Shown: positions 37,744 to 41,402 of the stretch, piece after piece
Numbering within the stretch: the stretch's first letter is position 1
Layout: the number at the start of each line of letters is the position of its first letter
NCBI GenBank assembly: GCA_007118695.1
Contig: SKRC01000081.1
Location: 1-41,402 of the forward strand
DNA length: 41,402 bases
Direction: 5' to 3'
Origin: Balneolaceae bacterium
Lineage (GTDB): Bacteria; Bacteroidota; Rhodothermia; Balneolales; Balneolaceae
Made by a program: the position numbers and the translations under genes
The notes under the pieces: model-generated
Databases searched by the model: none
Told to the model about the DNA's origin: nothing
The model's input: the letters and a program-made list of their open reading frames with translations, nothing else

Positions 37744-38301
37744 TTAGCTGCCCGGAGCATAAGGGTCAGGATTAATCGGGTGAGATTCTGCCACACGATT
37801 TACTTCACACCTTACTCTGTATCCAGGATCATAATCGCTGGGCGAACAAGGGACCGGGTGCTTGCCAAGTCCCCGTGTTTCAAGTCTGTCGGAACTGATT
37901 CCATTGGTTCTGTAAAAGTTGGCAACGGATTCAGCGCGCCTTACACTTAACCGAACATTGTACTGATCACCACCCACATGATCTGTGTATGCGTCAACAC
38001 GTACATTTACATCCGGATTTTCCCGGAGCAATTGAATGTTTTCAGCAAGTGAACGGGCAGCACGATCGGTGATATCAGATTTGTCAAAGTTGAAGTAGAC
38101 AGAGTGAAGCTCTTCAATAAAGTCAGCCTCTTCCACCTCTTCTTCTTCTTCCATCCAATCGACTTCTTCTTCCAGCTCTTCCGGTTCTTCATATACTTCT
38201 TCAGGCTCCTCTGCGACTTCTTCGGCAGTTCGACAGCCATTAAAAGCGATTAAACCGATCATTAAGCTGATAATCAGGAATAAATTAAACGATCTGGTCA
38301 T
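37744..38301 (-). CDS. OmpA family (Pal-like) lipoprotein
   Basis: A 185-residue outer-membrane lipoprotein that anchors to peptidoglycan. It has a lipoprotein signal ending AFNGC (Cys23), a very acidic linker (about 25-60, runs of Glu with Tyr and Pro), and an OmpA C-terminal domain (about 65-170) with VYFNFDKSDI, the DAYTDHVGGDQYNVRLSVRR signature, and DRLETRGLGK. The key Asp and Arg that hold diaminopimelate are present. Two cysteines, in PCSPSDY and VRCEVNR, may form a disulfide. It could be Pal, but no tol genes are near, so I give no symbol. A terminator follows. Confidence 0.9.
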   Translation of the reverse strand: MTRSFNLFLIISLMIGLIAFNGCRTAEEVAEEPEEVYEEPEELEEEVDWMEEEEEVEEADFIEELHSVYFNFDKSDITDRAARSLAENIQLLRENPDVNVRVDAYTDHVGGDQYNVRLSVRRAESVANFYRTNGISSDRLETRGLGKHPVPCSPSDYDPGYRVRCEVNRVAESHPINPDPYAPGS

Positions 38302-38610: not shown

Positions 38611-38684
38611 GGGGCTATAGCTCAGCTGGCTAGAGCGTCGCGCTGGCAGCGCGAAGGTCCGGGGTTCGAATCCCCGTAGCTCCA
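38611..38684 (+). tRNA. tRNA-Ala(GGC)
   Basis: A complete cloverleaf: acceptor GGGGCTA/TAGCTCC with one G-T pair, D arm GCTC...GAGC, anticodon arm TCGCG-CTGGCAG-CGCGA giving anticodon GGC (alanine, GCC codons), variable loop AGGTC, and T arm CGGGG-TTCGAAT-CCCCG. The discriminator base is A at 38684. CCA is not encoded. It stands alone, about 210 bp before the exported-protein gene set. Confidence 0.97.
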
Positions 38685-38892
38685 CAATCATCGACAGGCA
38701 ACTTATTCAATCAACAAATCGGGACCTGTTCTTGTAACTTCACGCTTATACGATCGTCTTATTTCATACTCAATTAACGTGCTAACCCAGCCGGTATCTA
38801 TGGATTAAACTTTTTTCATAAAGTGCTGATTCTTTTTAAGTATGGAGAGTTATCTATAGATTGCATCAAAATTAACAGAGAAGAGGTCGGAA

Positions 38893-40080
38893 ATGTTAAA
38901 AAATATACTCAAAATATTGGCCAGCTTGTTGCTGATATGTACTCTTCAAATCAGTTATACAGAGGCTCAATCGCCGGATATCGATCTGGATATACAGGCA
39001 GATCCGGTCTTTTCCAATGCGCAGGTCATCAATTTGACCAACCTGGTTTTTGATAAAAGCGGTAGAGGATCAGGGATTTTTTCAATTTTTATTCAAAATC
39101 GCACCGATCAGGCACAGGAAGGCCTCTATTTGGACTTGTTGGTCCGGACCCAGCGGCACGGGCTTATCGTGGAAGGCTTCCAGCGAAGCGGCACCCCCTT
39201 CAGCCTGAATCCGGGACAGGCTGTATTTGCCACCAACAATGATCTTGCACGAGGCAGAATATCCGGTATCGGCACAGATATTCAATTTGACGGAGGTATT
39301 ACCACCCCCGGAACCGAATTGATGAACAGATTACAGGGCAGTACCCGCTTGCCGGTTGATGAATATGTGCTTGAAGTCAGGCTATATCAGGGCAATAACA
39401 GGCCAAATGGCGGTGATCTGGTTACCAGCAATTCCATAATGATTGGTGGAGACCTGGCCGAAGACGAACTTTCTCTTTACCTGCTGGCCCCCGGTGATGT
39501 GGCTGGAACGGATGTGCAGATTACAAATTCATACCCGGAATTCCGTTGGGAAGGCCAGGCAGGCAAGACCTATAGGGTAATCGTTGTTGAGGAAAGAGAT
39601 GGTGAAAGTCCGGAAACCCTCATTCAGAGTGCAAAAAGTTCAACCCCGGGAAGAATTGGCTCGCCGGGAGCGCTGCTGGAGTATGAAATGTTCGATTTAT
39701 TGGTCGAAGGGACAAGTTTGCAATACCCCTCCTCCGGTGTGCAATCCCTTCAAGACGGTAAGACCTATTATTGGCAGGTATTTACTACACTGCAAACGAC
39801 CTCTGGAGTGGAGGAAAGAACCTCAGACATCTGGAGCTTTACGCTTGGCAGTGGTTTTGATGGGGTTGCAGACGGTGAGTTATTTGAATTGGATGGAGAA
39901 CTGAGGGAGATATTACTCACATTACTTGGCCCGGAAACTTTCAGGGAATTGGAACAGCGGAACTTTGAGCTGGAAGGCATGGAAGTTGACGATCAGGATA
40001 TGTATGGCGGAATGGCAAGGGATGAATTAATTCGAATTGCTGAAAAAATCAGGGATGGAAAAATTAAAATAGCCAATTGA
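38893..40080 (+). CDS. Exported protein with Ig/fibronectin-like domains, unknown function
   Basis: A 395-residue protein I cannot place in a named family. A Sec signal peptide covers residues 1-25 (ends TEAQ). Residues about 30-170 look like a beta-rich domain. About 195-310 resembles a fibronectin/Ig-type fold, with YPEFRWEGQAGKTYRVIVVE, then a long loop and TYYWQVFTTLQ and DIWSFTLGSG, reminiscent of surface or DUF928-like proteins. The C-terminal 70 residues are acidic and helical. It is first of three co-directional genes; the FecR-domain gene follows at once, with the TGA overlapped by a possible TTG start. The coding signal is strong, the function open. Confidence 0.8.
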   Translation: MLKNILKILASLLLICTLQISYTEAQSPDIDLDIQADPVFSNAQVINLTNLVFDKSGRGSGIFSIFIQNRTDQAQEGLYLDLLVRTQRHGLIVEGFQRSGTPFSLNPGQAVFATNNDLARGRISGIGTDIQFDGGITTPGTELMNRLQGSTRLPVDEYVLEVRLYQGNNRPNGGDLVTSNSIMIGGDLAEDELSLYLLAPGDVAGTDVQITNSYPEFRWEGQAGKTYRVIVVEERDGESPETLIQSAKSSTPGRIGSPGALLEYEMFDLLVEGTSLQYPSSGVQSLQDGKTYYWQVFTTLQTTSGVEERTSDIWSFTLGSGFDGVADGELFELDGELREILLTLLGPETFRELEQRNFELEGMEVDDQDMYGGMARDELIRIAEKIRDGKIKIAN

Positions 40081-40082
40081 CG

Positions 40083-40802
40083 ATGATGAAGGGTATACCC
40101 GTAATTCTGATGAAATTTGCCATTTTGCTGCTCTGCGTGGGAATGATATATACGGAGCTTGAGGAGATTATTGAAGAGCGTGAAATTGCTTTGGTACGCC
40201 GGCAGGTTCCCTCTGTGCTTATCTCCAATATGCAGACCGATACGGCCAACGTCGGAACCTCTCTCTACAGCGGCGATACACTCCGGACCGACCAGAACGG
40301 GTACGCAATGGTATTGTTTATGGATCAAAGCGTCACCAGGGTCAGGCCGCTGTCAGAACTGATTATCAATGGCAATGTGAACAGAGACAGGAGTACAAAT
40401 ACACAGATCGAGCTGAACAGAGGCGGATTTTTTATGAATGTAAACCGGGACGCCAACAGTGAAGTGGAAGTGGGGGCTTTCGGGACAGTTGCGTCGGTAA
40501 AAGGCACACGGTTTGGTGCTCTTGCAGAAGGGTTTTTCTGGGTGGAAGACGGTGAAATTGAAGTTATGCTTATCGAGACCGGTGAGGTTGTTACTCTTAC
40601 AGAAAATATGTTTGCAAGGGTAAGCGAAGATGGTTCGTCAATGGCATCCGGTGAGTTGAGCGAAGATGAAATGGAAGAGCTCGGCAATGATTATGACATT
40701 CTGGATTCCGACCTCGAACAGAGAAAACTTCGCTTGAGATTCAGAGATGCAAATGGGCAGATCCGGGAAATTGAAATAGACATCTACGAACAGGATAACT
40801 GA
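40083..40802 (+). CDS. FecR domain membrane-anchored protein
   Basis: A protein of about 239 residues with an N-terminal membrane helix (MKFAILLLCVGMIY), a short linker, and a FecR domain (about 45-170: SGDTLRTDQNGYAMVLFMDQ, SVTRVRPLSELIING, VGAFGTVASVKGTRFGALAE). FecR domains are best known in sigma-regulator proteins of iron uptake. Here no sigma factor is present and the protein lacks the cytoplasmic anti-sigma part, so a structural periplasmic role is more likely. Paired ATGs at 40083/40086 are the best starts; a TTG at 40077 that overlaps the previous stop is possible. An acidic helical tail ends the protein. Confidence 0.85.
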   Translation: MMKGIPVILMKFAILLLCVGMIYTELEEIIEEREIALVRRQVPSVLISNMQTDTANVGTSLYSGDTLRTDQNGYAMVLFMDQSVTRVRPLSELIINGNVNRDRSTNTQIELNRGGFFMNVNRDANSEVEVGAFGTVASVKGTRFGALAEGFFWVEDGEIEVMLIETGEVVTLTENMFARVSEDGSSMASGELSEDEMEELGNDYDILDSDLEQRKLRLRFRDANGQIREIEIDIYEQDN

Positions 40803-40831
40803 TGACTGACTTTTTATAGAAGTTGTACGGA

Positions 40832-41402
40832 ATGAAGGCTATTACTACTGTTTGTTATGGTTTGTTGATATTGTGTTTGTCTGTAGAAATGGCGGCATCA
40901 CAGAATTTTGTACGTCATCAACAACCGACAATTATAGAACGTGATAGTACGATTTCGCTTGAATTTGAGGTCGATCAGGTTAGTCAGGGTCAGGTTTTGG
41001 AATCCCTCCTGTTTGTCCGCCCATCCGGCAGAAGCAATTTTACCCAGATGGAGACCCGGTTTGATGGTGGTAGGTCCCGCTTTGAACTTCAAATTACGGA
41101 CAGAAACACAACCGGCATCGAATATTACCATGTACTTCGCCTGACCGACGGACGCCAGATTGTTTATCCAGATGTCACTGACGAGGCCGCTCCCATTCAG
41201 GTAGACATAGTTGACGCTGAGATCGAAACCCTGCCAGTTGCCGAATTTATAGACTACACCATTCTGTCACCACGGCCCGGCAGCGGAACCGATGGGCAGG
41301 ATCTGTTGATTGCCATTGCACTTTTTTATGATGACGAGGATGTCGAGGGAGGGCAATTCGGAATCACCATCAATGGCCGCGATGTTAGCGGGCAGGCTGA
41401 AA
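40832..41402 (+). CDS. Exported protein, 3' end beyond the window
   Basis: An open frame from ATG 40832 runs without a stop to the end of the window (190 codons). It starts with a signal peptide (MKAITTVCYGLLILCLSVEM, cleavage likely after AAS). It continues as beta-rich sequence: TISLEFEVDQVSQGQVLES, then SNFTQMETRFDGGRSRFELQ, TTGIEYYHVLRLTDGRQI, and a second module with DYTILSPRPGSGTDGQDLLI. This looks like an array of Ig-like extracellular modules. It follows the FecR gene by 29 bp and is probably in the same operon. Family unknown and length incomplete. Confidence 0.75.
   Translation, partial: MKAITTVCYGLLILCLSVEMAASQNFVRHQQPTIIERDSTISLEFEVDQVSQGQVLESLLFVRPSGRSNFTQMETRFDGGRSRFELQITDRNTTGIEYYHVLRLTDGRQIVYPDVTDEAAPIQVDIVDAEIETLPVAEFIDYTILSPRPGSGTDGQDLLIAIALFYDDEDVEGGQFGITINGRDVSGQAE

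Follow-up and report, generated by a model that had tools for sequence, protein, structure and literature searches.

A FecR gene without a sigma factor

In the ferric citrate signalling system of E. coli, FecA-FecR-FecI, an outer-membrane barrel and a FecR-domain protein work together with a sigma factor. FecR domains that lie outside sigma control are poorly understood, and the end of the DNA stretch analysed here (the window, 41,402 nucleotides of a contig from a member of the Balneolaceae) presents such a case: a FecR-domain gene lies between two genes for exported proteins. What kind of system do these genes belong to, and what does FecR do in it? Three genes are tightly packed on one strand at 38893-41402, with contact between the first two and a 29-bp gap before the third, as a sequence-only reading of the window had described. 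The first, g1 (38893..40080, plus strand; ATG at 38893, stop at 40080), encodes an exported protein of 395 aa. The second, g2 (40083..40802, plus strand), encodes a protein with a FecR domain (PF04773) and one N-terminal hydrophobic segment. Its frame opens with a TTG at 40077 that overlaps the g1 stop, and the first ATG, at 40083, lies 2 bp past it; the ATG is the preferred start. For the third gene, g3 (40832..41402, plus strand), the best start is the ATG at 40832, which agrees with the starts in relatives. The contig terminates at base 41402 inside the still-open g3, which thus runs on past the window as had been supposed, and the 190 aa encoded by the visible 5' part comprise a signal peptide and the greater part of two Ig-like domains. 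A hydrophobic export-type segment is found at the N-terminus of all three products. The three are taken to be real genes, since they align to those of a same-genus relative at 66% (g1), 82% (g2) and 65% (g3) identity.

The neighbours of the gene set are a tRNA-Ala(GGC) gene (38611-38685) and a gene for an OmpA-family protein of 185 aa (37744-38301, minus strand), in keeping with the earlier description of a FecR protein lacking a sigma factor; no sigma factor gene was found beside g2 in the window or between the operon genes in relatives. L078 and L079, the two closest relatives, both have a minus-strand gene of equal length at the corresponding place upstream of the operon. Most Balneolaceae loci also have a conserved gene of ~811-828 aa at one upstream position (L064:6278-8764), and the L064 copy, the one subjected to a domain scan, carries CarbopepD_reg and DUF5686 domains.

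The FecR domain of g2 is recognised at 39.7 bits (E 6.6e-10, cut-off 24), and the protein has a conserved C-terminal segment, RLRFRDxxGxxREIEI. It shows neither DUF4880 nor a FecR_C domain (PF16344 or PF16220), and it has no cytoplasmic anti-sigma domain, because few residues precede the hydrophobic segment. The ordinary FecR proteins of the same genome that were scanned have a long N-terminal region, FecR_C and an adjacent sigma factor gene. Sigma factors were confirmed beside four other FecR genes, FecR_C was found in three of the other FecR proteins, and DUF4880 was found below cut-off in one. The sequence-only reading had called g2 membrane-anchored; this does not extend to the family, as the N-termini of several homologues read, by eye, as cleavable signal peptides.

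The exported partners of FecR

Neither Pfam nor NCBIfam contains a family that matches g1 or the visible part of g3 over cut-off. The g1 protein also gave no sequence match to PDB chains at E 10 or below. Its structural model (mean pLDDT 75) contains two Ig/Fn3-like beta-sandwich domains (~60-184 and 200-318) and a C-terminal helical domain (335-387); given a pTM of 0.42, it was used for domain folds only. The structural matches of this model are weak and of Ig/Fn3 type.

Complete g3 proteins of relatives are ~900-970 aa long (about 915) and consist of a signal peptide, two Ig-like domains and a barrel that ends in ...RF. In the model of one such protein (L175; mean pLDDT 77, pTM 0.55), the two Ig-like domains (~28-231) are followed by ~28 long strands and a C-terminal phenylalanine. 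Outer-membrane barrels lead the Foldseek results, and the best TM-score among the matches listed belongs to MtrB of the Mtr complex (6r2q_B; 0.37 by query, 0.50 by target). An OMP_b-brl domain was detected in 3 of 19 g3 members. The protein is therefore predicted to be a large outer-membrane beta-barrel of 26-28 strands, whose barrel part is known from relatives, the window ending before it. Two more specific identities were rejected. A TonB-dependent receptor would have a plug, and neither Plug nor TonB_dep_Rec matched any of the 19 members, the N-terminus being made up of two Ig-like domains instead. Structural neighbours of g3 include LptD and the fimbrial ushers FimD/PapC; assignment to either lacks Pfam support, and TM-scores are low (0.22-0.38 to the ushers).

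A CHASE2 cyclase as the fourth gene

In relatives, a fourth gene, g4, begins directly after g3, in most cases only a few bases on, and encodes a protein of ~725 aa with a CHASE2 sensor (PF05226; E 1e-52), transmembrane helices and a class III cyclase domain (PF00211; E 2e-24). The catalytic set, consisting of two metal-binding Asp, the base-specifying Lys/Thr pair and the transition-state Asn/Arg pair, is invariant in 11 of 11 relatives. The Lys/Thr pair is as expected of an adenylate cyclase, and the predicted product is cAMP. Among solved structures, the nearest relative is that of the CyaB cyclase (3r5g). The C-terminus shows only weak TPR-like character.

The genome of the window has a g4 of its own, as a fragment at the first bases of another contig (C273:3-1460). 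The fragment is 64% identical to the g4 protein of L078, covers residues 253-736 of it and holds the complete cyclase domain and the last part of CHASE2. Behind it, on the other strand, comes an oxidoreductase gene with 72% identity to the one that succeeds g4 in L064. Because the g4 fragment starts C273 and has the same oxidoreductase next to it as in relatives, the simplest reading is an operon that an assembly gap has split; a search of the other contigs did not turn up the middle of g3. The three genes first noticed are thus real but incomplete as a set, which has four members, the third a predicted barrel and the fourth a CHASE2 cyclase. Of the neighbours that had been suggested, CHASE2 is present downstream in relatives, and no CHAT or TPR gene belongs to the set. 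Pfam scans of the set likewise revealed no DUF928 partner of the kind noted in other phyla. A phosphodiesterase gene is also missing from the conserved set, nor could any of its genes be recognised as encoding a chaperone, a pilin or a sortase-like protein.

Conservation of the gene set and its separable parts

Among 59 relatives, g1 is found in 27 and g3 in 28; both occur in 26 and neither in 30 (Fisher p 2.4e-13, a value that ignores shared ancestry). The exceptions are one weak g1-like match and two g3 matches near contig ends. The co-conservation of an exported/FecR set outside sigma signalling, on which the sequence-only reading depended, is thus borne out. Profile searches found the order g1-g2-g3-g4 on one strand at 51 of the 52 loci examined, which were selected for holding g1 or g3 and a few of which may come from the same species; the 52nd (L194) has a 350-aa exported protein at the place of g1 that scores below threshold. 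The loci belong to Balneolaceae, including Balneola and Gracilimonas species, and to single records labelled Rhodothermia, Chitinophagaceae and KSB1, so that the order spans Balneolaceae, remote Bacteroidota families and one KSB1 contig. In a phylum sample of 396 genomes, a CHASE2 gene lies immediately downstream of 80 of 93 clear g3 genes, on the same strand. Conservation of the four genes as a unit is well supported; it is their function that we infer.

The unit can also come apart. Pairs of g1 and FecR without an adjacent barrel or cyclase were seen at L143, L144, L145 and L146, and also at L136-L138, L140 and L142; at L136 and L140 the pair comes, by eye, after an FtsX-like gene. One Balneolaceae genus has a reduced operon, FecR-g4, at the site next to the oxidoreductase and a g1-g2 pair elsewhere; the loss of g1 from one reduced site is less than certain, since the upstream sequence is partly masked. 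Lone barrels of the g3 family (~880-915 aa) occur in one Bacteroidota lineage (L184-L187, L193), by eye near HIT-family, small TPR and ClpB-like genes, with some variation in the flanking genes. Neither g1-g2 nor CHASE2 adjoins these homologues, so a barrel need not have a cyclase for a neighbour. In one remote genome, two g1-like genes (383 and 524 aa) flank a FecR gene (L195:5081-8739). FecR is the part common to the separable pieces, being present in both the g1-FecR and the FecR-g4 pairs, and this agrees with a role as linker.

Bacteroidota CHASE2 cyclases are found in other sets as well, and the four-gene operon is accordingly one branch of a wider habit. In a second type of set, the cyclase gene adjoins a gene for an exported protein of ~405-460 aa; the partners scanned (L198, L204, L206) contain an M48 peptidase domain and a bacterial SH3 domain, and L205, L207-L209, L211-L213, L215 and L220 are assigned to this type by layout alone. 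In a third, a very large protein (1118-1557 aa) is followed by a small exported TPR protein (~224-252 aa) and then by the cyclase, the small TPR genes lying at L199:6652-7326, L210:6712-7470, L221:4449-5195 and L222:4687-5433.

A possible route from the envelope to cAMP

Taking the genes, their order and co-conservation, the domains and the catalytic residues as its basis, a reading of moderate probability is that the operon forms an envelope-to-cytoplasm cAMP signalling unit running from the barrel and Ig-like proteins through FecR to the CHASE2 cyclase. The g3 protein would be an outer-membrane barrel with two N-terminal periplasmic Ig-like domains, and g1 an Ig-like protein that is periplasmic or associated with the outer membrane. 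The g2 protein would serve as a periplasmic FecR-domain linker to g4, a putative inner-membrane receptor cyclase with CHASE2 in the periplasm and the class III adenylate cyclase in the cytoplasm. On the model of FecA-FecR-FecI, FecR may relay the condition of the barrel and Ig-like proteins (a bound ligand or envelope stress) to CHASE2, which would turn cAMP synthesis on or off. We infer the contacts between the proteins, the direction of the signal, the ligand and the target of the cAMP. A stronger version is offered tentatively, as a possibility more than an expectation: across Bacteroidota and beyond, the barrel would signal via the periplasmic Ig-like protein and FecR directly to the CHASE2 cyclase, following FecA-FecR logic with cAMP in place of the sigma factor.

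With regard to cAMP receptors, the sole cNMP-binding domain over cut-off in the genome of the window belongs to a 185-aa protein (L200; G000:C311:27717-27989). No HTH was seen in it, and the arginine that usually binds the cAMP phosphate is, by eye, apparently replaced; it is possibly a non-transcriptional or degenerate receptor. HTH_Crp occurs in 230 of the 245 genomes of the class and is so widespread that its co-occurrence is uninformative on the receptor.

The direction of signalling can be read the other way. In Sinorhizobium meliloti, smc02177 (FecR) and the periplasmic smc02178 are described as activated by cAMP-Clr and dispensable for perception (PMC5498481), so FecR could be an output of the pathway instead of an input. 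The cyclase would then be the input, and g1-g2-g3 a cAMP-regulated surface or periplasmic structure in which g1 and FecR are accessory or cell-wall-associated, an arrangement with which g1-g2 pairs and lone g3 barrels that have no adjoining cyclase are consistent. Precedent exists for both directions, since a Campylobacterota cluster has been put forward as a single pathway (PMC9239204) and the S. meliloti FecR gene is a target of cAMP (PMC5498481). However, linkage to the cyclase gene is not required of an output regulon, and here all three envelope genes are packed closely with the cyclase gene on one strand, with g4 last, in distant lineages. In the genus with the reduced locus, moreover, FecR stays with the cyclase, and barrel and g1 were not found there. 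The reversed order is judged unlikely on these grounds.

It is more doubtful still that the genes encode a periplasmic assembly or export device, in which the g3 barrel would serve to secrete or display g1, with FecR a chaperone or scaffold in the periplasm and the cyclase a loosely attached regulator. A large barrel preceded by Ig-like domains, usher and LptD folds among its structural neighbours, and an Ig-like exported protein encoded beside it would suit such a device, but the similarity to ushers is low, the accessory genes named above were not recognised, and a cyclase directly downstream at 80 of 93 g3 loci is not loose. Between assembly and sensing, the two functions first suggested for the set, signalling is the more likely because g3 is a predicted outer-membrane barrel and g4 a CHASE2 adenylate cyclase. 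That g2 is the remnant of a sigma/anti-sigma FecR system after loss of its sigma factor, with unrelated neighbours, is scarcely credible: PF04773 in g2 and ordinary sigma-FecR pairs in the same genome fit it, but the lack of the anti-sigma part and FecR_C, unlike in the genome's own FecR proteins, together with the missing sigma gene and the conserved neighbours of g2, largely refutes it.

Relation to known systems

The preferred signalling unit has relatives in other phyla. A Campylobacterota cluster unites a CHASE2 adenylate cyclase and an exported protein with a FecR domain; a cAMP phosphodiesterase and a TPR protein also belong to it, and it has been proposed as one signalling pathway (PMC9239204). 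Its available description names no Ig-like or barrel gene, whereas the four-gene set has both of these and neither a phosphodiesterase nor a TPR gene. The S. meliloti region cyaD1-smc02177-smc02178-clr also encodes, at a single locus, a CHASE2 cyclase (CyaD1), a protein with a FecR domain and a periplasmic protein, all of one cAMP pathway, but it includes the Crp-type receptor Clr, has FecR and smc02178 as outputs and is described without a barrel (PMC5498481). In the Burkholderia BiofilmReg operon, an exported FecR-domain protein likewise adjoins a CHASE2 sensor; CHASE2 there belongs to a histidine kinase with a response regulator, the FecR protein carries LysM and no barrel is present (PMC5192318). 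Magnetospirillum mtxA resembles g1 in encoding an exported protein that has an Ig/Fn3-like domain and ends in a helical region and in being followed by a CHASE2-adenylate cyclase gene, but the C-terminus of MtxA is TPR and FecR is not mentioned (PMC4439547). Homology of g1 to MtxA was rejected: the likeness is one of architecture only, as there is no sequence match and the MtxA structure (4Z29) is not among the top fold matches listed.

The FecA-FecR-FecI system shares with the four-gene set a barrel and a FecR-domain protein in one operon-like arrangement, and the same relay logic is proposed for both. In contrast to it, the set has a CHASE2 cyclase in place of the sigma factor, no TonB plug was recognised in g3, and g2 is without the anti-sigma part. 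FecR beside CHASE2 cyclases or kinases is thus already known from Campylobacterota, Sinorhizobium and Burkholderia, and what is new here is a variant with two families outside Pfam and NCBIfam. The suggestion of an undescribed system therefore needs to be narrowed: FecR and CHASE2 clusters have been reported (PMC9239204; PMC5192318), and the four-gene operon or its barrel partner was not found described in the portions available of the open literature on CHASE2 and FecR, a search that lay mostly outside subscription journals.

Implications

What CHASE2 domains perceive is described as unknown in the work on the Burkholderia operon (PMC5192318). For the missing partners of CHASE2 and FecR, the operon supplies concrete candidates in an outer-membrane barrel and an Ig-like protein, and g1 and g3 represent two widespread protein families that current family libraries do not cover. 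Balneola, Gracilimonas and other genera that can be cultured thereby offer a way to test the question of CHASE2 partners.
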